A DNA stretch of 64,000 bases from Deltaproteobacteria bacterium. Lineage in GTDB: Bacteria > Desulfobacterota > Binatia > DP-6. Every line of letters starts with the position of its first letter. The first letter of the stretch is position 1. The position numbers and the translations under genes were made by a program. The stretch covers positions 1-64,000 of the forward strand of contig VBKF01000098.1 in NCBI GenBank assembly GCA_005888095.1, written 5' to 3'. The notes beneath the pieces are model-generated. The model worked only from the letters and a program-made list of their open reading frames with translations, was not told the origin of the DNA and ran no database searches. This document shows, piece by piece, positions 42,371-59,242 of the stretch.

Positions 42371-43597
42371 TCAGCGGGCGAGCGCGGGACGCTCCGCGGG
42401 CTTCTCGCTCGCGCAGGCCGCGAGCGTGGCGGGTCGGGGCTGCCGCCCGGTGACCCGGCGCCACGCCTTGCGGAGCTTGAGGCTCGACCACTCCTTCAGG
42501 ACGGCGGGCATCATGCGCGGGTTGAACAGGATGTTGATGGTGAGGAAGCACTCGTAGGTGCAGAAGCACTTCGACTCGCGGATGAACCGGCGTGACGCCT
42601 CGGCTTCCCGGCTGAACCAGATCTTCCGGAAGTCGTAGCCGGCGTCGCGGACGTTGCCGAGCTTGCGGTCGATCAACAGCTCGCACGGGTAGACGTCGCC
42701 GTTCGCGAACATCGCGCCGCCGAGGTTCCCGCCGTAGCAGGGGATCTGGTACTCGTTCGTGCGCACGATCTTGGCGATCAGCTGGTGGCGCACGATCCGC
42801 TTGGCGTTGATGAAGTCGGCGAACGGGAAGTGGTCGTAGCCGGAGAGCGATCCCGACTTGTACTCGCGCTCCATGTGGTCGGCGTAGCGCTCGTACTTCT
42901 CGACGTTGAAGAACTTGGCCGCGGGTTCCTTCGGGCTGCCGCGGGTGAGCAGCGTGAAGACGGTGTCGACGTCGAGGTTCTTCCGGAACCACTCGTAGTT
43001 CTCGAGCAGCACGTCCTCGTTGTGCTTGGACACCGTCGTCTCCACCTGCACGCTGAAGTTCTTGTAGTGCTTCTCGATGTCGCGCAGCGCCTTGTAGGTC
43101 TCGACCGACCGCTTGAAGAGGCCGGGGAAGACCCGGATCTCGTCGTGCAACGCGCCGACGCCGTCGAGCGACACGTCGATGTGGAGGTCGAGCTCAGGAC
43201 AGGATTCGCACAGATCCTTGACGATGGAGATCGTCCGCGCCGTCGTGCTGCCGTTGGTCGGGATGCCGACGTTCCGCACCCCGGTGTTCTTGTGGAAGAT
43301 CTTGACGATCTCCCCGATGTCCTTCCGGAGGAAGGGTTCCCCGCCCGTGGGGAGGAGGAACATGAGACTCCCCTTCCCCATGCTCGCCGTCACCTTGTCG
43401 ATCTCCTCGAGCGACAGCTCCTGCTTGCGGTACGTCATCGAGGGCTCTTCCCAGCCGGGGTGCGCGCCGTCGGCGAGCAGGCAGTGCTTGCACTTGGCGT
43501 TGCACGCGTCGGTGATGAAGTAGACGAGGTACACGGGAAGCTGGCCGCGTTTCACGAACATCTTCCGGCCGTGCTTCAAGTAATCGAGGTATCCCAT
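42371..43597 (-). CDS. Radical SAM enzyme with C-terminal cysteine cluster
   Basis: 408 residues. Iron-sulfur motif C32xxxC36xxC39 (DACNAKCKHCL), GGEPFLR, THGST-type GIPTNGSTTA, and DVSLDGV; the C-terminal region has ANGDVYPCELLIDRKLGN and CFCTYECF, like the SPASM/twitch auxiliary cluster of MoaA/anaerobic sulfatase-maturase relatives. It begins 33 bases after the GT2 gene at 43631. It could modify a glycan, a lipid or a nearby protein; true anSME is less likely because the sulfatase-like proteins here have Thr rather than Cys/Ser at the target site. Confidence 0.87.
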   Translation of the reverse strand: MGYLDYLKHGRKMFVKRGQLPVYLVYFITDACNAKCKHCLLADGAHPGWEEPSMTYRKQELSLEEIDKVTASMGKGSLMFLLPTGGEPFLRKDIGEIVKIFHKNTGVRNVGIPTNGSTTARTISIVKDLCESCPELDLHIDVSLDGVGALHDEIRVFPGLFKRSVETYKALRDIEKHYKNFSVQVETTVSKHNEDVLLENYEWFRKNLDVDTVFTLLTRGSPKEPAAKFFNVEKYERYADHMEREYKSGSLSGYDHFPFADFINAKRIVRHQLIAKIVRTNEYQIPCYGGNLGGAMFANGDVYPCELLIDRKLGNVRDAGYDFRKIWFSREAEASRRFIRESKCFCTYECFLTINILFNPRMMPAVLKEWSSLKLRKAWRRVTGRQPRPATLAACASEKPAERPALAR

Positions 43598-46703: not shown

Positions 46704-48605
46704 CTACTCTCCCTGCCCGAAGCGGTAGATGACGTTGAAGGTGGGGCGCTTGCCGTTCAGATGCGTCACGATCGCCATCCCGATGCCGAGGAGGCCCCAG
46801 AAGAGGATCTGGACGGGCGGGTTGTAGAAGGCGTTGAAGTTCGCCATCGAGACGAGGAAGCCGAGGCCGGAGGAGAAGATGGCCCACAGCACGAGCGCGA
46901 GCCGGTGGTCCTGGACGCGCCGGCTGCCGTCGTAGATCGCGGCCAGCGCGGCGCCGATGACCCACATCATCAGCGCCCAGCCGACGAACCCGGCGCGCAG
47001 CATGAGGGTCAGGTGCATGTTGGCGCTCTGCGCGCGGTGAGGCGCCACCTCGCCGGGGCCCTCCACCTGCACGATGCTCACCGCGCCCTTCCCCGGCTCG
47101 GGCCCGGCCAGGGCCCGGTGGCTGCGGACCTCGGAGGAGATCGTCGCGCCGGTGAGCGACACGCGGCGCGCCCACTCGGCGCGGATCGCGCCCGGTGAGA
47201 GCCGGAGCGATCCGGTCAGCATCAGCAGCCCCACCACCAGGACACAGCCACCGGCGAACACCCTGAACGTCCGCCGCGACGCCCGCCAGGTGAACACCGA
47301 GCCCGTGATCCACAGCGCCAGCAGGCCGGTGCGGCTCTGGGTGAGGACGATCGCGACGATGACCAGCGTCGTGCAGATCAGCCAGAAGTCCCGCTCCTCG
47401 CGCCGCTCCGCGCCGGCGAGCTCGACCAGCACGAGCGGCACCCCGAGGACGAGGTAGGCGGCGAGGACGATCGGGCTGCCGAGGGTGGAGGCGATGCGCG
47501 GCGTGCCCGGGTGCGCGAGCAGCGCCCCGCCCGTGGTCGGGTGGGTCTCGAGCGCGATCTCGAGGATGCCGAGCAGCGACACCGCCACCGCCGCCAGCGC
47601 GACGACGCGCGTCGCGCGCACCACGAAGCGATCGTTCACCTCCCCGCTCACGACGAGGAAGACGAGGAGGAAGCCCGAGGCGCTGAAGTAGGCGACGTCG
47701 CGCAGCCGCGGCAGGAGATCGCCCCCGAAGAGTCCTGCGAGGGCCGAGAACAGCACGAAGCAGACCATCGGCCGGTTGGTGGGTGTCCGGTACAGGTAGA
47801 GGCGGTGGGCCGGGATCTGGCGCACGAGCGTCGTCACCGCGAGCAGGAGCCCCACGGCCTCGAAGGGCGACAGGTTGAACCCGCCCAGCGGGACCTCGAA
47901 CGGCTCCTTGAAGAGCGCCGGCGCGAACGATGCGCACAGGAAGATCAGGCCGAGCACGACACCGAGCGTGAGCCAGCGGTTGAGCAGCTTCACGAAGGTG
48001 GCGGCCACCAGCCGGAAGTCCAGCCAGAAGCTGCGGTTGCGGATGTAGAGCAGGTCGTAGCGCAGCTTGTCGCGCGGGTGCGTGAAGTAGCCCCCGCGGA
48101 GCTGGGCAAGCCCCGTCATGCCCGGCCGGACGATGAAGCGTGCGGTGTAGTGCGCGATCTCCCGCGTGGAGGTGGCGAGGAAGACGGGACGGATCGGCCG
48201 CGGCCCGACCAGGTTCATGTCGCCACGCAACACGTTCAGGAGCTGCGGGATCTCGTCGAGCTTGCTGCGCTTGAGGAACCGCCCGACCGGCGTGTAGAGG
48301 GGCTCGTCGGGTGAGAGGAGCCGCGCGCCGATCCGGCGCTCCGCGTCGGCCAGCAGGGTCCGGAACTTGTAGATGGTGAAGGGCCGGAGGTCGCGCCCGA
48401 TGCGCGTGCCGCGGTAGAGGATCGGTCCCCGGCTGGTGAGCTTGATGGCCAGGGCGACGAGGAGCGACACGGGCAGCAGCACGAGCAGCCCGGCGGCCGC
48501 GATCGCCACCTGCCACCAGCGGCCCCAGCGGCCGTCGGGCTGGAGGCCGAGGTCGCGGGCCGGCGCCTCGACCCGCTCCGGCCGCTGCGCACGCAGGCTG
48601 ATCAC
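46704..48605 (-). CDS. Initiating sugar transferase fused to an O-antigen ligase/polymerase domain
   Basis: 633 residues from GTG 48605, which overlaps the AsnB stop as GTGA. Residues about 30-215 are a bacterial sugar transferase (PssY/WbaP-type): a membrane helix, KFRTLLADAE, RSKLDEIPQLLNVLRGDMNLVGPRP. From about 225 about ten helices follow with the character of O-antigen ligase/Wzy (LGILEIALETHPTTGG, LTQSRTGLLALWITG, periplasmic loop to SANMHLTLMLRAGF). One chain would therefore start repeat synthesis and finish polymerisation or ligation. Such fusions are rare to my knowledge. Confidence 0.85.
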   Translation of the reverse strand: MISLRAQRPERVEAPARDLGLQPDGRWGRWWQVAIAAAGLLVLLPVSLLVALAIKLTSRGPILYRGTRIGRDLRPFTIYKFRTLLADAERRIGARLLSPDEPLYTPVGRFLKRSKLDEIPQLLNVLRGDMNLVGPRPIRPVFLATSTREIAHYTARFIVRPGMTGLAQLRGGYFTHPRDKLRYDLLYIRNRSFWLDFRLVAATFVKLLNRWLTLGVVLGLIFLCASFAPALFKEPFEVPLGGFNLSPFEAVGLLLAVTTLVRQIPAHRLYLYRTPTNRPMVCFVLFSALAGLFGGDLLPRLRDVAYFSASGFLLVFLVVSGEVNDRFVVRATRVVALAAVAVSLLGILEIALETHPTTGGALLAHPGTPRIASTLGSPIVLAAYLVLGVPLVLVELAGAERREERDFWLICTTLVIVAIVLTQSRTGLLALWITGSVFTWRASRRTFRVFAGGCVLVVGLLMLTGSLRLSPGAIRAEWARRVSLTGATISSEVRSHRALAGPEPGKGAVSIVQVEGPGEVAPHRAQSANMHLTLMLRAGFVGWALMMWVIGAALAAIYDGSRRVQDHRLALVLWAIFSSGLGFLVSMANFNAFYNPPVQILFWGLLGIGMAIVTHLNGKRPTFNVIYRFGQGE

Positions 48606-50554
48606 GTCGCCTCCCTTCCGGCGTCCGCGGCGAGCGTGCGGCACCGGTCGCCGTACCCGGCGGCCGCGCGCACCTCGGCGCGGACGGCGTCATGCCACAC
48701 CACGAGGACGAGGAGCGCCCAGATGGCGCGGCTGTGGTCCGCCCGCCGCGTCATGTGCTCCGCCACCAGCCGGCCGACGGCGTCGGGATCGAGGAGTCCC
48801 TGGCGGCGGAGGCGGGTCGGCGCGAGCACGTCGTGCGTGAAGTCGCGCAGCTCGCCCACCAGCCAGCTCGGGATGGGCACGTTGAACCCGCGCTTGCGGC
48901 CATCCACGATCGCGGCGGGCAACCGCCCGGCCATCGCGCGGCGCAGCGCGTACTTCGTCGTGAGGCCGCGGAGCCGGAGCCGGGCCGGCAGGCGCCGCGC
49001 GAGCTCCATCACGGCGCGATCGAGAAAGGGCACGCGCGCCTCGAGCGAGTGCGCCATGCTCATGCGGTCGACCTTCACCAGGATGTCGGCGGGCAGGAAG
49101 AGCGTTGCATCGACGTACTGCAGACGGTCGAGCTCCTCGCCGTCCGACTCCGCGTACAGCCGTTCGAAGAGCCGCACGGTCGCTTCCACCTCGGCCGCCG
49201 TCCCGTTCGCGTAGAGGGCCGCCTTCACGTCCTCGGCGAGGACGGTCTTCCACCAGAGATGACCGGCGGCCGGCGGCAGATACGCGCCGGCGACGAAGCG
49301 CTTCGCCTTGTAATCGAAGCTCACGCGCGCATGCGACACCGGCAGTCGCCGCACCAGCTCCGGCAGCGCCCGGCCGCCGATCAAGCGCGGCAGCCGGGCG
49401 TAGAGCGCGGCCAGGCGCCGGGCGCGGTAGGTCTCGTACCCGGCGAGCATCTCGTCGCCCCCCTCGCCGGAGAGGACGACCTTCACGTGCCGGCGCGCGA
49501 GCTCCGAGAGGTGCCAGACGGGAATCGCCGAGGAGTCGGCGAACGGCTCGTCGAAGTGGCGCACGAGCCGCGGCAGGAGGGTGGCGGCATCGGGCCGCAC
49601 GACGAGCTCGTGGTGCTCGGTCCCGAAGCGAGTCGCGACCTGCCGGGCACCGTCGATCTCGCTGAAGCTGCGCTCCGCGAAGCCGATCGTGAAGGTGCGG
49701 ATCGGGTGCACGCCGAGCTCGTGCATGAGCGCGACGATCGTGCTCGAGTCGAGCCCGCCGGAGAGGAAGACGCCGAGCGGCACGTCGCTCATCAGGTGGC
49801 TCTCGACCGCCGCCCGCAGGGCGGCGAGGAGCTCGGCCTCCCACTCGCCGTCGGTGCGCCGCGCGCCGCGGCCGGCATGGCCGCGCAGGTCCCAGTAGCG
49901 TTCGGTGCGCACCCGGCCCCCCGGCTCGGCGACCAGCAGGTGCCCCGGGGGCAGCTGCCGGACCCCCCTGAAGATCGACGCGGGGCCCGGCACGTAGCCG
50001 AGGGTCAGGTAGTCGTGGAGCGCCTGGAGGTCGAGGTCGGGGTCGAGCCCGGCCGCGAGCAGGCACTTCGCCTCCGAGCCGAACAGCAGCCGTCCGCCGG
50101 TCTCGGCGACGTAGAGCGGCTTGATGCCGACGCGGTCGCGGCCGAGCACCAGGCGGTGCCCGCGGCGGTCCCACAGGGCGAAGGCGAACATCCCGTCGAG
50201 GCCGGCGAGCGCGTCCGTCCCGCCCTCCTCGTAGAGATGCGCGATCACCTCGACGTCACTCGACGTGCGGAAGTGATGGCCCCGGGCGAGCAGCCCGGAG
50301 CGGAGCGCAGGGCTGTTATAAATCTCGCCGTTGCACACCACCTGGACGGAGCCGTCCTCGTTGGCGATCGGCTGGTGGCCGCCCGCCACGTCGACGATCG
50401 ACAGCCGGCGCATCCCGAGCGCCACCTCGGCGTCGGCGAACTCGCCGAAGTCGTCCGGGCCGCGGTGCGCCATGACGTCGCACATGGCCCACACGCGCGC
50501 CGCGCTGGCGCGCGCTCCGAGTCGGAGCCTCAGCTCTCCTGCGATGCCGCACAT
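48602..50554 (-). CDS. asnB: Asparagine synthase-type amidotransferase (AsnB family), second copy
   Basis: 650 residues from ATG 50554. Cys2 (MCGIAGELRL), RGPDDFGEF and NGEIYNSPALR give an intact glutaminase; FLSGGLDSSTI and GEGGDEMLAGYETYRARR give the synthetase. It resembles the AsnB homologs regularly found in XrtA-type EPS loci. It probably amidates a uronic-acid residue. It overlaps the sugar transferase fusion downstream and lies 16 bases after the deacetylase stop. Confidence 0.9.
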   Translation of the reverse strand: MCGIAGELRLRLGARASAARVWAMCDVMAHRGPDDFGEFADAEVALGMRRLSIVDVAGGHQPIANEDGSVQVVCNGEIYNSPALRSGLLARGHHFRTSSDVEVIAHLYEEGGTDALAGLDGMFAFALWDRRGHRLVLGRDRVGIKPLYVAETGGRLLFGSEAKCLLAAGLDPDLDLQALHDYLTLGYVPGPASIFRGVRQLPPGHLLVAEPGGRVRTERYWDLRGHAGRGARRTDGEWEAELLAALRAAVESHLMSDVPLGVFLSGGLDSSTIVALMHELGVHPIRTFTIGFAERSFSEIDGARQVATRFGTEHHELVVRPDAATLLPRLVRHFDEPFADSSAIPVWHLSELARRHVKVVLSGEGGDEMLAGYETYRARRLAALYARLPRLIGGRALPELVRRLPVSHARVSFDYKAKRFVAGAYLPPAAGHLWWKTVLAEDVKAALYANGTAAEVEATVRLFERLYAESDGEELDRLQYVDATLFLPADILVKVDRMSMAHSLEARVPFLDRAVMELARRLPARLRLRGLTTKYALRRAMAGRLPAAIVDGRKRGFNVPIPSWLVGELRDFTHDVLAPTRLRRQGLLDPDAVGRLVAEHMTRRADHSRAIWALLVLVVWHDAVRAEVRAAAGYGDRCRTLAADAGREAT

Positions 50555-50570: not shown

Positions 50571-51608
50571 TCAGGCCGCGAGCCGCTGCCGCTCGAGCGC
50601 CGCCGCCAGCTCGCCGACGGGAGCCAGCCGCGGGCCGATGCCGAGACGCGGCAGCGTGAAGAGGTCCGCCCCCGGGCGCAGCGCCCCGGCGCGCGAGACG
50701 ACCGCCGAGCGGAAGCCGAGCCGGCGGAGCAGCGCGGCCGTGTCGGGCCCGAAATAGCGATGGGCGCCGCCGGTGTTGGGATAGGCGAAGTGCAGGGCGG
50801 GAGCGCCCACCGCGGCGGCAATCGCGTCGCGCGAGGCGACGATCTCGGCCTCGGCCTCGGCGGGCGAGGCGAGCGCCACGTTCAAGTGCGTCACCGTGTG
50901 GGCGCCGATCGTCCAGCCCGCCCGCGCCAGCTCGCGGACCTCGGCCCAGGTGAGCATGACACCGGCGAGCCGATGCTCGAGGTCCACGCCCGCGGCCTCC
51001 GCCGCCCGCGCGAGGCGCTCGGCGCGGTCGGCCGGCGCGAGCGGCACCAGCGCGCGCGTCAAGATGCGCGCCGCGCCGTCGCGCTCGGCGACCGTGCCGA
51101 GCGCCAGCGCCGGGAGGCCGGCAACCGAGAGCTCGCGGCCGGGCGCGCCCCGCACGAGCGCCCGCACCACCGACATCCACAGCGGCGGGCCGCCGTCGAG
51201 CGCTCCGGTCGTCACGTAGAGCGTGGCCGGGAAGCCGAGGCCCTGGAGCACGGGGAACGCCAGCCGATGGTTGTCCGCGTAGCCGTCGTCGAACGTGATC
51301 GCCAGCGCGCGCGGCGGCAGCTTGCCGCCGCGGGCGACCGCGGCCACCAGCTCGTCGAGCGGCACGACCGTGTAGGCGCGGCGGACGAACGCCATCTGGA
51401 GGCGGAACGCCTCGACCGGCAGGCAGACGCCCGGCGCGGCGTAGAGCACGTCGCTCGGGCCGTCGGTGAGCACATGGTAGCGGAGCACGAGAGCCCGCAC
51501 CCGGCTGCGGGCGTGGCGCGCGAGCGCGAGCAGCCCCGAGTAGTGCAGCATGCGCTTGGCGGCCCAGGCGCCGAGCCGGGGAAGGTTCGAGGGATGTCTG
51601 TCGTTCAT
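50571..51608 (-). CDS. Polysaccharide deacetylase (NodB-type, CE4)
   Basis: 345 residues, with no clear signal peptide. Motif 1 AITFDDGYADNH, motif 2 GAHTVTHLN (metal His pair), and FAYPNTGGAHRYF in the region of motif 3. CE4 enzymes remove N- or O-acetyl groups from polysaccharide, and similar proteins occur in XrtA loci. The N-terminal YHVLTDGPSDVLYAAPGVCLPV places it among deacetylases that act on polymers in the envelope. ATG 51608 overlaps the GNAT stop as ATGA. Confidence 0.87.
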   Translation of the reverse strand: MNDRHPSNLPRLGAWAAKRMLHYSGLLALARHARSRVRALVLRYHVLTDGPSDVLYAAPGVCLPVEAFRLQMAFVRRAYTVVPLDELVAAVARGGKLPPRALAITFDDGYADNHRLAFPVLQGLGFPATLYVTTGALDGGPPLWMSVVRALVRGAPGRELSVAGLPALALGTVAERDGAARILTRALVPLAPADRAERLARAAEAAGVDLEHRLAGVMLTWAEVRELARAGWTIGAHTVTHLNVALASPAEAEAEIVASRDAIAAAVGAPALHFAYPNTGGAHRYFGPDTAALLRRLGFRSAVVSRAGALRPGADLFTLPRLGIGPRLAPVGELAAALERQRLAA

Positions 51609-52639
51609 GCGGCGTCCTGATCCAGAAACGGCGGCCGCAGCCCGTTGTCCGTCCAGTCGAAGTTGACGAGCCAGCTGGACGTGTCGCGCCCGAGCATCAC
51701 GGGGCCGCGGGCAGAGCCCAGCGCGAACGGCCGCTCGACGCGGGCCGGGCGGAATCCGAATCCCTCGTAGACCCGCCGCATCCGCGCGTGGGACGAGGCG
51801 AGCACCACTTCGGGCTGCCGGCTGCCGTCCCCCGCCACCCGGGCGACGGCCGCCAGCACCCCGGCCGCGAGCGTCTCGGGGTCCGGTCCGTCGGCCTGCG
51901 CCACCACCAGGCTCCCGGGGTGCTCGTTGAGGACGACGTAGCCGCACGGCTCGCCGCGCACCAGCCGGAAGAGACGGTAGCGCACGAAGGAGAGGGCCCG
52001 GCTGTAGCGCCAGTCGAGGTACGCGACGCCGGGCGCGAGCCGGAGCGCGAACCCGCCCGCGCGCGGCAGCATGTCCTCGCTGAACCCGCTCACCTCCTCC
52101 GCGCCGACCGCCGGCAGCGCGCCGCGCGCGATCGCGTGCCGCAGCCGCCCGCCGACGTCGACCGGCGGCGTCGCGGCCCGCAGCAGCGACTTCGCCACCC
52201 CGCGCCAGAGCGGCTCGGCGTGCCGGCTCACGTAGCGGCCGTTCAGGCGGTAGATGCGCACGCCCGGGAAATAGGTCCAGTGCTGGTGCTCGAGGATGCG
52301 GTGCGTGTCGGGGCTGCCGCCGTAGATGCAGGCCAGCTCGCTCGAGCGGACCCAGCGCAGGAAGAGGACGCCGCCTGCACCGCGGCGGAAGGCGACGAAG
52401 TTGGAGGCGCAGCCGATGGTGAGGGGCCGGCCCTCGTATTCGAAGCGGAGCTGCTCGATACCGATCGCGCCGGCAACGGCGCCATCGTCCGCGAGTGCCA
52501 GATACAGCCGGCACCACGGCGCCGTCGCGTAGTAGTGGTCGACGAACGGACGGTGCGCCAGGCTGTGGCCGGCGGCGGCGTCCCGCGCCGCGGCGGCGAG
52601 CGCCGGAAAGAGCGCCGGTTCGTAGGTGACGATGCGCAT
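51605..52639 (-). CDS. GNAT-fold acyltransferase
   Basis: 344 residues. Acetyl-CoA/ACP-binding GNAT features: ALADDGAVAGAIGIEQL, GCASNFVAFR and LEHQHWTYFPGV in the first half, and a second half with RLVRGEPCGYVVLNEHPGSLVV and SHARMRRVYEGFGFRPA (the pyrophosphate-binding region). The double-domain layout recalls FemAB-type or GNAT glycan acyltransferases. It is directly coupled to the MaoC-SDR fusion and the ACP, so an acyl-ACP donor is possible. It is probably the acylating enzyme of the cassette. Confidence 0.75.
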   Translation of the reverse strand: MRIVTYEPALFPALAAAARDAAAGHSLAHRPFVDHYYATAPWCRLYLALADDGAVAGAIGIEQLRFEYEGRPLTIGCASNFVAFRRGAGGVLFLRWVRSSELACIYGGSPDTHRILEHQHWTYFPGVRIYRLNGRYVSRHAEPLWRGVAKSLLRAATPPVDVGGRLRHAIARGALPAVGAEEVSGFSEDMLPRAGGFALRLAPGVAYLDWRYSRALSFVRYRLFRLVRGEPCGYVVLNEHPGSLVVAQADGPDPETLAAGVLAAVARVAGDGSRQPEVVLASSHARMRRVYEGFGFRPARVERPFALGSARGPVMLGRDTSSWLVNFDWTDNGLRPPFLDQDAA

Positions 52640-53832
52640 CAGAGCTGGCCGCCGCTCAGCTCGATGAGCTCGCCCGAGAGGAACGACGCGCCGGGCGAAA
52701 GCAGGAAGCGCACGACGTCGCTCACGTCTTCGGGCCGGCAGAGCCGCCCGAGCGGCACGAGCGAGGCCTTCATCCGGATCCACCGCTCGCTCTGGTTCTT
52801 GTTCATGCCGACGGGGACGAGGGCCGGGCAGACGGCGTTCACCGCGATCGCGCGCCGCGCCATCTCGGGCGCGAGGAGCTTCACGGTGCTCTCGAGCGCG
52901 GCCTTGCCGAGCGAATAGGCCGCCAGCGAGAGATTCGGCTGACGACTCCCCCAGATCGAGCTCACCACCACCAGGCGCCCGCCTTCGGGGCCGACGCGGC
53001 CGAAGAGAAAGCGGGCGAGTCGCACCGCGTGGACGGTGCCGAAGCGCACCTGCTCCTCGATCGTCTCGTCGGGAGCGGCGAGGAGCCCGCCCCGCGGCGC
53101 ACCCGGCCAGGCGGCATGGACGACGGCGAACAGCGGCCGGTCGCCGAGGGCGGCCTCGAGCGACTCACGCCAGTCGGCCGCCGCGAGGTCGACGCGCAAC
53201 GGGGTCACCCGTGGGTGCGCCGCGAGCGTCTCGGGCAGCGGCCGCGTGTGAGCGAGGGCGAGGATCCCGTGGTCGCCGGCGAGGCGGGCCGCGATCGCCG
53301 CCCCCAGGCCGCCCGAGGCGCCGGTCACCACGACGAGCGGGGCGTCGGCGGCGGCCGCGGGCCCCACGGGCGCGGCCGGCGCGGCGACGGCCGGGCGGCG
53401 CGACTCGTGCCGCGTGAAGCCCATGAAGATCTCCGCGGTGGGGAGGTGGCGCCCGGCGTCCTGCACGACGACCTTCACGGTCCCCGTGCGCAGCGCGGAA
53501 TCCCACGCGACGATCTCGCCGCGCACCAGCACCCGGCACGGGAAGTAGAGCGGCACGGGGAAACGGGCCTGCACGGACCCGAGCAGGACGTGCGGGCCCG
53601 GGAGGTACATGCCGACGAGGGCGGAGGCGAGCCCGACCTGCATGGCACCGTGCACGAGCCGGCCCTCGAGCTTCGTGGCGCCGGCGTACACCGGATCGAC
53701 GTGCAACGGATTCCAGTCGCCGGAGCTCTCCGCGAAACGGAGCACGTCCTCCTCGCAGATCTCCCGCTCGAACTCGGCCGCGAGCCCGACCGCGATCCCG
53801 CCCGCCTCGAGCGCCTGCATGGCCCGGCTCAC
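52639..53832 (-). CDS. MaoC-type hydratase fused to an SDR ketoreductase
   Basis: 397 residues from GTG 53832. Residues 1-145 are a MaoC hot-dog hydratase with catalytic D39, N41 and H44 (GDWNPLHVDPVYA). After an Ala/Pro linker (147-165) comes an SDR: VVVTGASGGLGAAIAARL, catalytic S291/S292, Y306 and K310 (SSIWGS, YSLGKAA), ending GELIELSGGQL. MaoC hydrates or dehydrates the acyl thioester; the SDR reduces the 3-keto group. Coupled to an ACP and FkbH, it would process a carrier-bound acid. GTGA overlap with the ACP stop. Confidence 0.87.
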   Translation of the reverse strand: MSRAMQALEAGGIAVGLAAEFEREICEEDVLRFAESSGDWNPLHVDPVYAGATKLEGRLVHGAMQVGLASALVGMYLPGPHVLLGSVQARFPVPLYFPCRVLVRGEIVAWDSALRTGTVKVVVQDAGRHLPTAEIFMGFTRHESRRPAVAAPAAPVGPAAAADAPLVVVTGASGGLGAAIAARLAGDHGILALAHTRPLPETLAAHPRVTPLRVDLAAADWRESLEAALGDRPLFAVVHAAWPGAPRGGLLAAPDETIEEQVRFGTVHAVRLARFLFGRVGPEGGRLVVVSSIWGSRQPNLSLAAYSLGKAALESTVKLLAPEMARRAIAVNAVCPALVPVGMNKNQSERWIRMKASLVPLGRLCRPEDVSDVVRFLLSPGASFLSGELIELSGGQL

Positions 53833-54083
53833 CGGCCGTTCCGCCGTTCGACCAGATCGAGGATGGTCGCGAAGGACATCATCTCCTCGAGCTCCTCGAG
53901 CTCCACCTGGATGCCGAACTCCTCCTCGATCACCGCCACCAGGTTGATCGACGCGAGCGAATCCCAGGTGCCGACCGACGCGGGGCTGGCGAGCGGGATC
54001 TCGTCGGGGCCGAGCTCGGGGAAGACCAGCCCGAAGCAGCGCGCGAGCCGGCTCTGCACGCGATCGGTCGGACCTCCGCTCAT
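53829..54083 (-). CDS. Acyl carrier protein
   Basis: 84 residues. Small acidic helical protein with the phosphopantetheine Ser42 in the motif SVGTWDSLASINLVA, expected for a stand-alone ACP. ATG 54083 overlaps the FkbH stop as ATGA, and its own stop overlaps the MaoC-SDR GTG. In FkbH cassettes the ACP carries the glyceryl or related unit loaded from bisphosphoglycerate. No dedicated phosphopantetheinyl transferase is in the window. Confidence 0.85.
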   Translation of the reverse strand: MSGGPTDRVQSRLARCFGLVFPELGPDEIPLASPASVGTWDSLASINLVAVIEEEFGIQVELEELEEMMSFATILDLVERRNGR

Positions 54084-55822
54084 GCGGACTCCCCGGTGTG
54101 ACAGCGGACGAAGAGTCGCGGCTTGCGCGCCGCGAAGCGTTCCGCCGTGACGCACGCCTCCGTGCCCGGCTCCTCGTCGGCCAGCGAGCGGAGGAAGTCG
54201 GCGACCAGATGGTTCTTCGGAGTCGGCGCGTAGGCGAACGCGATGTCGAGGATCTTCAGCCGGTCGAACAGGAAATCGAGCGTCGCCCACTCGATGCGGC
54301 GGCTGAACGCCCGGCAGCTGAGCACCCACGTGTCGACCCGGAGGCGCCGCCCGGCGAGCCGCCCGGCCAGCACCGAGACCTTGCCGAGCGGGCCGTATCG
54401 GTCGCGATACGCCAGCAGGACTGCGAAGGCGCCCTCGCGCCCGAGCAACGCGCGCCACTCGCCCTCCGTGTAACGGCGGCCGTTCAGGTTGAACTGGTTC
54501 GTCTTGTTCACCAGCTCGAGCGGACGCGGGTCGCCCACCACCGGCGCCGGGAGCACCACGAGCTCCTGCTCGGCGCGTGCGAGGAAGGCGTCCTGCCGCT
54601 CCGCCCCGGACGTGACCGGCGGAAGGTCGGGCGGCACCCCTCCGACGGTCCGGGCGCGGAGCGCGTCCTCCTCCGAGAGGATCGGCTTGCCGAAGAGGTC
54701 GCGCAGCTCCTCGAGGACGGCGTAGACGGCCCCGTCGTCGCCGGTGGGGAAGCGGAGGCACGCGACGTCGGGATGGACGGCCGCGACCTCGGCCAGCTCG
54801 GCGGCGCTGTCGTCGACGAAGACGACGCCATCGGCACCGAGGTTCCAGGCGCGCAGGATGCGCTCGACGGAAACCGACTTGGGCTCCCAGTGCGCCTCGA
54901 CCGGGAACAGCCGCTCGCGTGGCACGAGCAGGCCCGGCGCCGCGAGGCCGGCTTCCACCGTCTCCGGGTCGGCCTTGCACACCACCCCGATCAGCACGCC
55001 CGCCTCGGCGAGCGCGGCGAGGAGCTGCTGGTAGAGCGCGTGCCCGTGGCTCTTCTGATCGAGGTCCCACGAGACGCCGGTCGATTCGCCCAGGACGCCG
55101 CGCCAGAGCGTGTCGTCGAGGTCCGTGATGAGCGCCTTCTTGGGCGCCGGCGGCGCGAGCAGCCGGACGAGCAGCTCGGCCAGGGCGGCGGCGTGCGCCC
55201 GGCGGTAGGGAAAGCCGAGCGTCAGGTACGACCGGACGTCGAGCCGCGTGCCGGGCGGCGAGAGGCCGTCCAGGCGCTGCGCGTCGACCAGGCGGACGCC
55301 CGGCAGGCGGACGAGTCCGGCGGCGAGCTCGGCCACGAGGCGACGGAGGTCGGTTGCGAGCTCGCTCGCCACCCAGCCCGGCGTGAACGACGCCGGCGGC
55401 AGCGGCAGCGTCGGCGCCGCGACCGCCACCGGCATCCGAGCCGCGAGCCGGCCGACGCCGGCGAGGATCGCGTCGCGCGCCCAGGCGGCCTGCGTCACCA
55501 TGTCGGCCAGGTCGGCGGGCCGCCATCCCGCCGCCTCGCGCAGGCCGAGGCGCCGGTCGAGATCGGCCCACTCGAGGACGACGGCGGCGCCCTCGGCCTC
55601 CGCCCGGCCGCACCGCTCCAGGCCGCTCAGCAGATCGCCGGACGGGGCGGTCGCGAGCTCGACTCGATCCCCGGGCAGACGGCGCTGGAGCTCGGCGGCG
55701 ACGAAGGTGCCGAGGTGCAGCGGGGTCGAGCCGCAGACGAGCACGTACCGCGCCACCCGTCCGGGGGCGGCGCGGGCGGCGTTGAGGACGGCGAGGGCCT
55801 CGGAGACGGTGCGGGCGCTCAT
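54080..55822 (-). CDS. FkbH-like HAD-IIIC protein
   Basis: 580 residues. An N-terminal SGNH-like region (to about 225) is followed by the HAD domain with KKALITDLDDTLWRG (D234 and D236), GVLIGVVCKADPETV and VFVDDSAAELAEVAA, then a C-terminal GNAT-like domain (ELVNKTNQFNLNGRRYT, about 430-580). FkbH proteins activate a glyceryl group from 1,3-bisphosphoglycerate onto an ACP. It is next to an ACP and a hydratase/reductase, so it probably begins a short acyl-ACP pathway here. The N-terminal open frame to 56047 is shadow; ATG 55822 overlaps the deacetylase stop. Confidence 0.88.
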   Translation of the reverse strand: MSARTVSEALAVLNAARAAPGRVARYVLVCGSTPLHLGTFVAAELQRRLPGDRVELATAPSGDLLSGLERCGRAEAEGAAVVLEWADLDRRLGLREAAGWRPADLADMVTQAAWARDAILAGVGRLAARMPVAVAAPTLPLPPASFTPGWVASELATDLRRLVAELAAGLVRLPGVRLVDAQRLDGLSPPGTRLDVRSYLTLGFPYRRAHAAALAELLVRLLAPPAPKKALITDLDDTLWRGVLGESTGVSWDLDQKSHGHALYQQLLAALAEAGVLIGVVCKADPETVEAGLAAPGLLVPRERLFPVEAHWEPKSVSVERILRAWNLGADGVVFVDDSAAELAEVAAVHPDVACLRFPTGDDGAVYAVLEELRDLFGKPILSEEDALRARTVGGVPPDLPPVTSGAERQDAFLARAEQELVVLPAPVVGDPRPLELVNKTNQFNLNGRRYTEGEWRALLGREGAFAVLLAYRDRYGPLGKVSVLAGRLAGRRLRVDTWVLSCRAFSRRIEWATLDFLFDRLKILDIAFAYAPTPKNHLVADFLRSLADEEPGTEACVTAERFAARKPRLFVRCHTGESA

Positions 55823-56619
55823 CGCCCGTTCCCGTCGCGATACCAGAGCGCCAGGACCGGCGCGCGCAGCCGGCTCCAGCGGCGCCGGCCAAGGCAGGCC
55901 TTGGCGGCGTTCTTGGCCGCGTCCACCGTCCGCAGCCGCCAGAGCGCGCCGCGCTGGGCGTCGACGATCGCGGCGAACTCCTCGACCGGCATGCCGCGCC
56001 GGACGCCGACGCGCGGCATCGAGAGCGGCGGGTCCCCCGGGTGCCACCAGCCGACGCGGCTCGTGCAGAAGACGCGATAGCCGAGCTCGGCGAGGAGGGG
56101 CGCGAGCGCCGGCCGCTCCCAGCCGTGCGGCAGGGAGGCGGCGTGCACCGGCGCGCCGAGGCGATCCTCGAGGAGGCGCTTCGAATCGCCGAACTCCCGG
56201 CGCACCGCCTGCTCGTCGAGGGCGTCGAGGAAGGGGTGGGTCATCGAGTGGCTGCCGATCTCCATGCCGGCGGCGAGCATCTCGCGCACCTGCGCCCAGG
56301 TGACCTGACCGGGCCGGTCGATGCGGGTCGGGACGACGAAGAAGGTGGCGCGGAGGCCGAGCTCGACGAGCGCCGGAAAGGCGTACTCGTAGTCGCTCGC
56401 CGCGCCGTCGTCGAAGGTGAGGCTGAAGAAACCGCCGCCCAGCTCGCCGGGCACGCGGCTGACCGCCACGGCGCGCCGCGGCGAGTCGGCCGCCGCCAGC
56501 AGGTGGGCGCGGAACTCCCGGGGATCGAGCGCGTAGGGGCGGTGCGCCGGCGGCACGTCAGCGAGCCGGGAGGCGGGCACGACGTCGTGAAAGGCGAAGA
56601 CCGCCGCGCGGGGTCTCAT
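55819..56619 (-). CDS. Polysaccharide deacetylase, second copy
   Basis: 266 residues from ATG 56619. NodB motifs SLTFDDGAASDYE and GSHSMTHPFLDAL, then SLPHGWERPALAPLLAELGY in the motif 3 region. There is no signal peptide. It is shorter than the copy at 50571 and probably acts on a different residue or step. It overlaps FkbH on one side and the glycosyltransferase on the other by the ATGA type. Confidence 0.87.
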   Translation of the reverse strand: MRPRAAVFAFHDVVPASRLADVPPAHRPYALDPREFRAHLLAAADSPRRAVAVSRVPGELGGGFFSLTFDDGAASDYEYAFPALVELGLRATFFVVPTRIDRPGQVTWAQVREMLAAGMEIGSHSMTHPFLDALDEQAVRREFGDSKRLLEDRLGAPVHAASLPHGWERPALAPLLAELGYRVFCTSRVGWWHPGDPPLSMPRVGVRRGMPVEEFAAIVDAQRGALWRLRTVDAAKNAAKACLGRRRWSRLRAPVLALWYRDGNGR

Positions 56620-57737
56620 GCGGCCGCCTCCAGGCGCTCGGCGTACAGCCGCTCGAGGCGCGCCACCATCTGCTGCGCGCTGAACCCCTCCTCGACCGAC
56701 CGCTGGGCCGCACGCCCGACGGCCGCCGCCCGCGCCGGGTCGGCAAGCAACCCGAGCACCGCAGCCGCGAGCGCCGCCGGGTCTCCCGGCGGCACGAGGA
56801 TCCCGGTGCGCTCCGCGTCGACGGCCTCGCGCGTGCCGCCGACCGCGGTCGCCACCACCGGCCGCCCCGCGGCCATCGCCTCGAGGAGCGCGTTCGACAT
56901 CCCCTCGGCGCGCGACGGCAGCAGGAAGACGTCCATCGCCGCGAGCGGCGTGCGCACGTCGGCCACCGCCCCCATGAAGTGCACGGTCTCGCCCAGGCCG
57001 AGGTCGGCAGCCTGCCGCTCGAGGCGGGCGCGCAGCGGGCCGTCGCCGACGATCAGCCCCTGCGGCCCGAGACCGTCCGCCAGCCCGCGCATCGCGCGCA
57101 CCGCGAGGAGGAAGTCGCCGTGACCCTTGCGCTCCTCGAGGCGGCCGACCGTCCCGACCACCGGCCGCCGCGGGTCGAGCCCGAGCGCCGCCTTGGCGGC
57201 GGGCGGCCTCGGGCCGCCGCGCACGCGGTCGACGTCGATGCCGCTCGGGATGACCGCCCAGCGCCCGCGCACGCCGTGCGCCTGGGCCTCGCGGCGCAGC
57301 GCGTCCGCGTTGGCGACCACCGTGTCGACCAGACCCGCGATCACCCGCCAGGCGAGCCGAGCCTGCCGGTCGTCGCCCGTGAGGCTCCGCTTGCTCGCAA
57401 GGACGAGGCTCGCCCCGGCCAGCCGCCCGGCGACGGCGCCGACCAGCGCGGGACGCCACTGGTAGCCGTGCACGATGTCGGTGCGGGCGGCGCGCAGGAG
57501 GCGAGCCGCGCGCACCAGACCGCGGAGGGCCTGCGGCGTGGCCAGGCGGTGGCCGAGGTCGAGCGAGGTGACGGGGACGCCGGCGTCCCGGAACTCGGCG
57601 GCCAGCTCGCCGCCCGGGCGCAGCGTGTAGACGTGGGCGACGAACCGGCGCGGGTCGAGATGGCGCAGCACCTGCTGGAGGTGCCGCTGCGTGCCCCCCG
57701 TGTAGAGCAGCGGGGCGAAGTAGGCGACGCGCGTCAT
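56616..57737 (-). CDS. Glycosyltransferase family 4
   Basis: 373 residues from ATG 57737. GT-B fold with RVAYFAPLLYTGGTQRHLQQV, a central NADALRREAQAHGV region, VGTVGRLEERKGHGDFL and RAEGMSNALLEAMAAGRPVVA at the donor site, a WsaF/ExpE-like GT4 type. It is joined to the ligase gene by an ATGA overlap and to the deacetylase by another. It is a cytoplasmic sugar transferase in repeat-unit assembly. Confidence 0.88.
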   Translation of the reverse strand: MTRVAYFAPLLYTGGTQRHLQQVLRHLDPRRFVAHVYTLRPGGELAAEFRDAGVPVTSLDLGHRLATPQALRGLVRAARLLRAARTDIVHGYQWRPALVGAVAGRLAGASLVLASKRSLTGDDRQARLAWRVIAGLVDTVVANADALRREAQAHGVRGRWAVIPSGIDVDRVRGGPRPPAAKAALGLDPRRPVVGTVGRLEERKGHGDFLLAVRAMRGLADGLGPQGLIVGDGPLRARLERQAADLGLGETVHFMGAVADVRTPLAAMDVFLLPSRAEGMSNALLEAMAAGRPVVATAVGGTREAVDAERTGILVPPGDPAALAAAVLGLLADPARAAAVGRAAQRSVEEGFSAQQMVARLERLYAERLEAAA

Positions 57738-59242
57738 GCCGGAGCCGCCAGGGCGTAGCGGCGCCCGCGGGTCACGCGGACGACGACGCCCGCCGGCTCC
57801 GGCAAGCGCTCGACGTAACGCCGCATCGCGACGATCTGACCGATCAGGATGTAGGTGAACGGGGACTGCCAGAGATCCGCGAAGAGGGCGAAAAAGCAGA
57901 ACAGCAGGTACACGATGCGCATCGCCGCCGCGATGTAGCCGACCCCGAGGTCGCGGTGTGCGAGTCGCGTCACCACCTGCAGGTCGCGCCACGTGATCCA
58001 CAACAGGAGCAGGTAGAGCCCGAGTACGAAGACCCCCCCTTCGGACGCGGCCCAGAGGTAGGAGTTGTGCGGCGGGCGGTAGAAAGCATCGTTGTATACC
58101 TGGCGGGACACCTCGCGGAAGTTCCCCAGCCCGACGCCGAGCCATGGATGGTCCTTGATCATGTGCAGGCCGGCAAAGATCGTGTCCTCGCGCATCACGT
58201 TCGACGACGCCGCGCCACGGTCTTCCGCCTTGGTGGGCATCAGGTGCGTCATCCGCGCCCAGTCCCCCGCCGGGATCACCGTCGTAACCAGCAGAACGCT
58301 GGCCGCGACCCCCATGCCGACGTACCTCGCGGGGACCCGGAAGGCGCGCGGACCGGTCTGGATCAACACACCGAGTACCACGGCGCCGAGCAGGCCGCTG
58401 CGCGAGCCGGTGGCCAGGAGGACGGGCAGACAGGCGGCGATCGCGCCGCCCGCGATCAGGCGCCGGGAACGGCCCGGGTCGGACAACGCCCAGAACCACC
58501 AGCACGCCATCTCCATGAGGCAGATCATGGAGAGCTTGTTCGCGTTGCCGCCTGCGCCGAACGATGCCGCCGCCCGGAAGCCGAGCACCAGGTTGCCCTG
58601 CATCCAGTTGACCAGCGCCGACGGGACCGCGCCGTAGAGCGCCAGCATGTAGGCCAGGAAGGTCGCGCGGACGTCGCGCCGCGAGCGGACGAAGACGAGG
58701 AAGAAGAGGAGGAACGCGAGCCGCGTCACGAAGTCGTGCGTCAGGTTTTCCGTCTTGTCGAGGATGAAGACTTTGCCGCGGCTCGGACGCAGGAGGGGAA
58801 AGGCATCCGGGGCGTGGCTGGTGGCAGCCAGGAACACGAGCCCGATGGCGGCGAGGACGATGACCTGCGGGACCTTCAGGAACGAGAGGTCGCGCGTGTT
58901 CAGGACGTACACGGCGAGCGAGACGACGAAGCCGACGCCGAGCAGGTTCTGGACCGTGAGGAAGCCGAACGCCTGCAGGACGGTCGGATAGGCGCTCAGC
59001 AGGTAGAGCGACACCATCACGACGATCCCCATGACGGGGTTGGCGAGGAGCACGCCCACCATGGCCAACGCCACCCAGGCCGCGCCGACGATGATCTCGA
59101 GCCCGAGATACGTCCCGGCCACGGTGAGGGCGGCGACCAGCGGGAGCGCGAGCGCCACCACGATCCGGATCGCGAGCGGCATCGCCGCCGCGCGGCGGGT
59201 GGCCCTGAAGCGAGCCGGCAGGTGTGCAATCGGTACGACCAA
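57734..59242 (-). CDS. O-antigen ligase/polymerase-family membrane protein
   Basis: 502 residues from TTG 59242; the alternative ATG 59182 has no ribosome binding site. About twelve membrane segments, a large periplasmic loop with MIKDHPWLGVGLGNFREVSR and FYRPPHNSYLWAASEGGVFVLG, the Wzy_C/WaaL pattern. It joins or polymerises the glycan at the periplasmic face. It is the second such domain in the locus, the other being fused to the sugar transferase at 46704. The TTG follows GAGAGAGG by seven bases. The stop overlaps the GT4 gene. Confidence 0.87.
   Translation of the reverse strand: MVVPIAHLPARFRATRRAAAMPLAIRIVVALALPLVAALTVAGTYLGLEIIVGAAWVALAMVGVLLANPVMGIVVMVSLYLLSAYPTVLQAFGFLTVQNLLGVGFVVSLAVYVLNTRDLSFLKVPQVIVLAAIGLVFLAATSHAPDAFPLLRPSRGKVFILDKTENLTHDFVTRLAFLLFFLVFVRSRRDVRATFLAYMLALYGAVPSALVNWMQGNLVLGFRAAASFGAGGNANKLSMICLMEMACWWFWALSDPGRSRRLIAGGAIAACLPVLLATGSRSGLLGAVVLGVLIQTGPRAFRVPARYVGMGVAASVLLVTTVIPAGDWARMTHLMPTKAEDRGAASSNVMREDTIFAGLHMIKDHPWLGVGLGNFREVSRQVYNDAFYRPPHNSYLWAASEGGVFVLGLYLLLLWITWRDLQVVTRLAHRDLGVGYIAAAMRIVYLLFCFFALFADLWQSPFTYILIGQIVAMRRYVERLPEPAGVVVRVTRGRRYALAAPA

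Follow-up and report, generated by a model that had tools for sequence, protein, structure and literature searches.

Here, we present an analysis of a run of four genes, encoding an FkbH-type protein, an acyl carrier protein (ACP), a MaoC dehydratase fused to a short-chain dehydrogenase/reductase (SDR), and a predicted GNAT acyltransferase. The genes lie in an exopolysaccharide (EPS) cluster on the minus strand of contig VBKF01000098.1 (GCA_005888095.1) of a Deltaproteobacteria bacterium of the DP-6 lineage; the window, i.e., the whole stretch analyzed, comprises 64,000 nucleotides (nt). Using comparative genomics, we found that FkbH, ACP, MaoC, and SDR are coupled. We consider it likely that this locus directs the acylation of a glycan with an ACP-borne C3 acid, and we regard the question of whether this acid is lactyl specifically as evenly balanced. 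For the proposal as a whole, we lean slightly toward a pathway in which a short hydroxy acid (lactyl) is formed on a carrier protein to decorate the exopolysaccharide of the surrounding cluster. In its broadest form, the proposal describes a previously undescribed de novo route from 1,3-bisphosphoglycerate to lactyl-ACP (by FkbH, ACP, MaoC, and SDR), which would serve purely for surface-glycan acylation, draw on exchangeable acyltransferases from four superfamilies, occur in no fewer than eight bacterial phyla, and have an FkbH-ACP-MaoC version in thaumarchaea; this form we advance tentatively, as possible rather than probable.

Conservation of the gene order and of the broader module

The first-pass annotation had placed the genes for FkbH, ACP, MaoC-SDR, and GNAT between two NodB-type polysaccharide deacetylases (PDA_up and PDA_dn), and all four were recovered on the minus strand at the positions it gave (Table 1). 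The order, from which a common pathway had been proposed, is indeed conserved among relatives. A congener shows synteny from the export-protein gene to GT2b (72-96% identity); its PDA_up is in the same place and 82% identical, and its PDA_dn is 81% identical. The order PDA-FkbH-ACP-MaoC/SDR-GNAT is also present in a Brocadiia planctomycete (FkbH, 49% identity; ACP, 49%; MaoC, 61%; SDR, 55%; GNAT, 47%) and in a verrucomicrobium (FkbH, 41%; ACP, 49%; MaoC, 54%; SDR, 41%; GNAT, 33%). Altogether, three other genomes from three lineages share the six-gene order (28-87% identity). A further genome of the same phylum retains the FkbH-ACP-MaoC-SDR core at 42, 46, 54, and 47% identity, respectively, and in it a hexapeptide acyltransferase together with a deacetylase-like gene upstream replaces the GNAT.

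The planctomycete and verrucomicrobial loci came from a scan of GTDB genomes with an alignment of MaoC-SDR. More loci were obtained when genomes sampled from three phyla were searched with profiles, which gave matches in 2 of 289, 4 of 294, and 18 of 399. We tabulated 33 MaoC/SDR loci and counted a partner if it was within 6 kb. FkbH, on the same strand, and ACP were each found at 31 of the 33 loci; a locus that lacks both nearby (L207) has a contig end beside the gene, and L197 is an exception for ACP only. An acyltransferase is within 6 kb at 22 of the loci and is a tandem GNAT, a RimJ-like GNAT, or a hexapeptide, AAC3-like, or MBOAT protein, i.e., a member of one of four unrelated superfamilies (GNAT, hexapeptide, AAC3-like, and MBOAT). 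Judged by record titles, the phyla represented include Planctomycetota, Verrucomicrobiota, Pseudomonadota, Bacteroidota, Omnitrophota, Acidobacteriota, Campylobacterota, and the window's own phylum. Relatives of MaoC-SDR over its full length are present in many phyla, and one named strain that has the module is Desertibaculum subflavum SYSU D60015 (L088). There are at least three gene orders (FkbH-ACP-MaoC.SDR, ACP-MaoC.SDR-FkbH, and MaoC.SDR-(AAC3)-FkbH-ACP), and for this reason the association looks functional rather than like a single inherited string. Plasmid records contained no MaoC-SDR fusion at E ≤ 1e-20.

In a phylogenetic tree of FkbH, nine of the ten then-available proteins encoded beside a fused MaoC-SDR are in one clade (support 100/99), and the FkbHs of the Bryobacterales and Helicobacter loci (unfused MaoC and SDR, with an MBOAT) and of an omnitrophote (fused) are outside it. 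The MaoC/SDR partnership changes three times on this tree versus 8.3 changes expected by shuffling, and none of 500 shuffles gave so low a number; the well-supported branches alone force only one change. Control sets meant to measure the background frequency of FkbH gave two matches among 28 SDR loci and three among 44 MaoC loci. FkbH and MaoC are together in all five (with ACP in three, MBOAT in two, and SDR in two) and, therefore, these loci extend the module set rather than measure the background. At the position corresponding to residues 436-451 of the window FkbH, the members of the nine-protein clade beside a fused MaoC-SDR read NKTNQFNLNGRR (NLNGKR in one) and other FkbHs read NLTTRR or similar; the NKTNQFNLNGRR stretch is a possible diagnostic motif.

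The GNAT gene is also found beside an ACP gene where no FkbH is nearby. In genome G003 (L166:11162-12857), an ACP gene (48% homologue) is followed by a VOC gene (methylmalonyl-CoA-epimerase-like) and a gene for a GNAT 48% identical to that of the window. In the XrtA (exosortase A)-type locus of G261 (L167:6340-11643), the gene for a GNAT weakly similar to that of the window (E = 1e-4) is located between those for a deacetylase and an ACP, and the ACP gene is followed by genes for an XrtA-associated AMP ligase (TIGR03098) and a decarboxylase (TIGR03099), both above the cut-off. That the GNAT is kept beside an ACP in both cases supports the idea that the ACP would be its acyl donor and that the loading enzymes may be exchangeable. 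The G261 locus suggests that a glycan acyl group is also made by the XrtA ligase/decarboxylase/ACP set.

Two thaumarchaea, Nitrosotenuis chungbukensis (L111:7979-10771) and a marine group I metagenome-assembled genome (L100:495-3274), have consecutive genes for FkbH, ACP, MaoC, and an AcpS-type phosphopantetheinyl transferase in glycan loci. RmlA/RmlB-like genes are in the surroundings of both loci, and those of L111 also include genes for a deacetylase, a hexapeptide transferase, and NeuB. The two ACPs are divergent (WTSF and WDSF), and PF00550 found no match in either genome, the module's own ACP being too divergent to score. A dedicated ACP/phosphopantetheinyl transferase pair in archaea is, therefore, a possibility. 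Archaea are not known to have bacterial-type fatty acid synthesis; a role of the thaumarchaeal MaoC as a helper of fatty acid synthase is, therefore, unlikely.

Domains, catalytic motifs, and folds

The FkbH of the window scores 177.1 bits with TIGR01686 (cut-off, 146.65) and has both the HAD-IIIC domain and the C-terminal acyltransferase region. The DxD, TNQFN, and SCR-Cys (C503) motifs are kept in this protein and in 23 aligned FkbHs, two of which read TNQLN. Its structural model (predicted local distance difference test [pLDDT], 82) has SGNH-like, HAD, and GNAT-like parts; the top PDB match is 3slr (Bacteroides fragilis BF1531, N-terminal part), followed by MDP-1 HAD, GDSL esterases, and GNATs. 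The serine of the DSL motif is kept in all module ACPs aligned. The MaoC domain matches PF01575 with 54.5 bits (cut-off, 27) and is closest to 3-hydroxyacyl-thioester dehydratases; the SGDxNPLH motif with its Asp and His is kept in 13 of 13 proteins. The SDR domain passes PF13561 and has FabG-type 3-oxoacyl-ACP reductases as best matches; YxxxK is likewise kept in 13 of 13, and the window SDR also has the TGxxxGxG cofactor motif.

No Pfam or NCBIfam model matched the 344-residue GNAT, and a sequence search of PDB gave nothing firm. Based on Foldseek, its low-confidence model (mean pLDDT, 58) has 49 PDB matches at E ≤ 1e-3, all GNAT, tandem-GNAT, or FemX, and the protein is predicted to be a tandem-GNAT-fold acyltransferase. 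Both deacetylases match PF01522, have the TFDDG (DD) and HxxxH motifs, and belong to the NodB (CE4) type. Neither has an N-terminal hydrophobic stretch (the maximal 15-residue hydropathy at the N-terminus of PDA_up is 1.04), from which we suggest that both probably act in the cytoplasm. PDA_dn has weak HfsH/PgaB-like matches below cut-off, with 35.3 bits for the HfsH model NF050820 (cut-off, 400). Two loci (L092:1092-2222 and L195:7322-8452) encode related 376-residue proteins beside the ACP that give a marginal XrtA-deacetylase score (E, 0.003-0.01) and are possibly diverged deacetylases.

Proposed pathway and alternative explanations

In the pathway that we suggest, FkbH would dephosphorylate 1,3-bisphosphoglycerate and load D-glycerate on the ACP, as established for the FkbH family. 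Because glyceryl-ACP is a beta-hydroxyacyl (3-hydroxyacyl) thioester, the MaoC domain could eliminate its C3 hydroxyl to give the enol of pyruvyl-ACP. The fused FabG-like SDR would reduce the labile 2-keto thioester to lactyl-ACP, and the fusion of the two domains would channel and protect this intermediate. Judging by its family, a cytoplasmic NodB-type deacetylase would free an amino group on a sugar or a lipid-linked repeat unit, and the tandem GNAT would move the acyl group from the ACP to this amine ahead of flipping by Wzx and polymerization by Wzy. We infer every chemical step at this locus, together with its product and acceptor, and in particular the identity of the acid, the use of acyl-ACP by the GNAT, and an amine as the acceptor. 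The proposal predicts that glyceryl-ACP is converted to lactyl-ACP in vitro.

The first-pass annotation had noted that no polyketide synthase is encoded at this locus and had proposed that the gene set makes a short hydroxy acid on the ACP for glycan acylation. Consistently, the 64-kb window contains no ketosynthase gene, and the 15 sequences first tested (the window and 14 related locus stretches) contain no ketosynthase. The ketosynthase genes of the genome are on other contigs, and its only FkbH is that of the window. Among 20 loci added later, there is one divergent fab-type operon and one marginal ketosynthase match. The conserved order and the lack of a ketosynthase in the first 15 sequences support the proposed reading. 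A housekeeping fab operon was rejected as an explanation because there is no ketosynthase and FkbH is constant.

Lactyl is not the only product that the gene set would allow. FkbH alone yields glyceryl-ACP (PMC7489565, PMC4979870), nonulosonic acids bear N-glyceroyl and di-O-methylglyceroyl groups (PMC6120980, PMC3068675), and many FkbH genes of the phylum have no adjoining MaoC/SDR; together with an fkbH-domain gene, cj1302, within the flagellin glycosylation region of Campylobacter jejuni (PMC7099621), these observations speak for a product that is glyceryl, or a dehydrated or oxidized derivative of it, with MaoC-SDR catalyzing another step or the reverse one and glyceroyl being placed on the glycan. 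Such a product leaves the near-constant MaoC and SDR partners (31 of 33 loci), with catalytic residues intact in 13 of 13, unexplained, and we regard it as unlikely. MaoC-SDR might instead act on intermediates of fatty acid synthase and make, e.g., 3-hydroxybutyryl-ACP for transfer of a 3-hydroxyacyl group, with FkbH catalyzing another step; the nearest relatives of both domains fit this idea, as does the 3,5-dihydroxyhexanoyl group of the Flavobacterium psychrophilum O-polysaccharide, which is made with ketosynthase, ketoreductase, and ACP (PMC6519341). However, unlike the F. psychrophilum locus, the first 15 sequences have no ketosynthase, FkbH is the most constant partner, and the two thaumarchaea, which have no recognizable standard ACP, still carry FkbH-ACP-MaoC and the phosphopantetheinyl transferase, making this explanation improbable. 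We give equally little credence to the idea that the ACP-dependent route supplies a lipid or a soluble secondary metabolite and is located in an EPS cluster incidentally. Polyketides and peptides account for most known roles of FkbH (PMC4979870, PMC10143770), and some module loci show no clear glycan genes within the stretch that was seen; against this, glycosyltransferases and deacetylases recur beside the module in several lineages, NeuB is encoded in several loci, and no polyketide synthase or nonribosomal peptide synthetase gene was seen in the loci examined.

Several points weigh against lactyl transfer from the ACP to a glycan amine. The assignment of lactyl rests on the family action of MaoC and SDR on beta-hydroxyacyl thioesters. 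The GNAT could use acyl-CoA as the donor, and, at loci with neighboring MBOATs, the linkage to the acceptor could be through O instead of N. No SDR adjoins the MaoC of the thaumarchaeal loci, and the genome assembly of L089 contains no FkbH, although this locus has ACP, MaoC-SDR, and AAC3. A deacetylase is nearby at 9 of the 33 loci, two of these with marginal scores, and mainly at GNAT-type loci. Finally, most relatives are metagenome-assembled genomes and, therefore, binning errors could affect single assignments.

Gene layout and the surrounding exopolysaccharide cluster

The first-pass annotation described start/stop overlaps throughout the four genes. This is correct for FkbH/ACP and for MaoC-SDR/GNAT (1 nt), whereas ACP and MaoC-SDR overlap only if the latter starts at the GTG at 53832; with the ATG at 53820, which is backed by the congener (L063), there is an 8-nt gap. 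Overlaps of 4 nt of the ATGA type connect GT4/PDA_up, PDA_up/FkbH, FkbH/ACP, and GNAT/PDA_dn, and the translation-coupled run is, thus, longer than previously noted, with the upstream GT4 gene as its first member. Chance open reading frames in high-GC DNA are ruled out, as homologues across phyla keep the catalytic motifs. A tRNA-Arg (gcg) called by ARAGORN on the minus strand at 52141-52215 was rejected as most likely a false positive, because it is inside the GNAT coding sequence.

Table 1. Genes of the coupled run and its downstream neighbor, in order of transcription
Gene or product	Coordinates	Strand	Details
GT4 glycosyltransferase	56616-57752	minus	First in coupled run
PDA_up, NodB-type polysaccharide deacetylase, predicted cytoplasmic	55819-56619	minus	PF01522, E = 3.7e-23; TFDDG and HSMTH motifs
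FkbH (SGNH-like N-terminal, HAD-IIIC phosphatase, and GNAT-like C-terminal domains), predicted glyceryl-ACP former	54080-55822	minus	580 aa; TIGR01686
ACP, dedicated	53829-54083	minus	84 aa; WDSL motif; PF00550 above cut-off
MaoC-SDR, MaoC dehydratase fused to SDR reductase	52639-53820	minus	PF01575 and PF13561; start ATG 53820, GTG 53832 possible
Tandem-GNAT/FemX-like acyltransferase, predicted acyl transfer from ACP	51605-52639	minus	344 aa; fold matches
PDA_dn, second NodB-type polysaccharide deacetylase, predicted cytoplasmic	50571-51608	minus	PF01522, E = 2.9e-20; TFDDG and HTVTH motifs
AsnB-like amidotransferase	48602-50554	minus	Next after PDA_dn

The module is surrounded by a Wzx/Wzy-type EPS cluster, all on the minus strand, between position ~35 kb and the window end. 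The cluster encodes an export protein, Wzz- and tyrosine-kinase-like proteins, Wzy, glycosyltransferases, a Wzx flippase, a sulfatase-like protein, and a radical-SAM protein. It resembles XrtA-type clusters, and the XrtA/PEP-CTERM marker models are related but miss their cut-offs (amidotransferase TIGR03108, 575.7 versus 816.9; export protein TIGR03027, 108.7 versus 180). At 46704-48605, an initiating bacterial sugar transferase (PF02397) is fused to an O-antigen ligase/polymerase-like membrane domain (633 residues; 90% identity to the congener), and the radical SAM/SPASM protein encoded at 42371-43597 is 95% identical to that of the congener versus 72-91% for most neighbors.

Comparison with known systems

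FkbH enzymes convert 1,3-bisphosphoglycerate to glyceryl-ACP (PMC7489565, PMC4979870). The first-pass annotation had described this as a function in polyketide synthesis; the role stands, but FkbH is not confined to polyketide clusters, as cj1302 illustrates. The FkbH/OzmB-type polyketide pathways (methoxymalonyl-ACP and tetronates; PMC7489565, PMC4979870) share with the window locus FkbH, a standalone ACP, and the expected donor 1,3-bisphosphoglycerate. In these pathways, glyceryl-ACP is oxidized and methylated or condensed by ketosynthases/FabH-like enzymes; in contrast, the window locus has no ketosynthase and has MaoC-SDR, an acyltransferase, and deacetylases in a glycan locus. A software paper writes the FkbH step as "1,3-bpg + ACP -> D-lactate-ACP" (PMC7901079), which we treat as a hint only; a literature search for a bryostatin-type lactate loading module found nothing beyond this paper.

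The nearest precedent is wfpC-G of F. psychrophilum, in which an O-polysaccharide-specific ACP is predicted to pass 3,5-dihydroxyhexanoyl to Qui2NAc4N (PMC6519341). A polysaccharide-specific ACP and a locus-encoded acyltransferase are common to both systems, their counterparts in the window being the ACP and the predicted GNAT-fold gene. However, in F. psychrophilum two ketosynthases and a ketoreductase are proposed as chain builders, the acyltransferase is PglD-like, and no FkbH or MaoC is reported (PMC6519341), whereas the window and the 14 stretches have no ketosynthase. In C. jejuni, pseudaminic acid bears di-O-methylglyceric acid derivatives (PMC3068675), i.e., a glycerate-derived group on a surface glycan, and cj1302 is in the same region (PMC7099621); we infer that the gene is linked to this group. 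HfsH and HfsK of the Caulobacter/Hirschia holdfast (PMC8449245) also pair a NodB-type deacetylase with a putative acyltransferase on one polysaccharide; however, the hfs locus does not include hfsK, neither an ACP nor acyl-building genes are reported (PMC8449245), and PDA_dn matches HfsH weakly. In XrtA EPS loci such as that of G261, genes for a deacetylase, a GNAT-like protein, and an ACP are likewise neighbors within an EPS cluster, but there the ACP is presumably loaded by the AMP-forming ligase and not by FkbH, and the GNAT homology is weak.

Many small acyl groups on bacterial surface glycans have no known biosynthetic source; in Tannerella forsythia, a candidate gene for the N-glyceroyl group "remains elusive" according to the authors (PMC6120980). 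The module is a plausible source of glyceroyl- or lactoyl-type groups. If our proposal is correct, the FkbH-ACP-MaoC-SDR module with exchangeable acyltransferases would provide a gene signature for decoration with C3 hydroxy acids, tie the chemistry of capsules and exopolysaccharides directly to glycolysis, and extend the role of FkbH from polyketides to glycans; moreover, the thaumarchaeal FkbH-ACP-MaoC would be a rare use of an ACP in organisms without bacterial-type fatty acid synthesis. A literature search for FkbH with MaoC found no paper joining both. Compared with the known FkbH and glycan-acylation systems, the module would join glyceryl-ACP chemistry to ACP-dependent glycan acylation.

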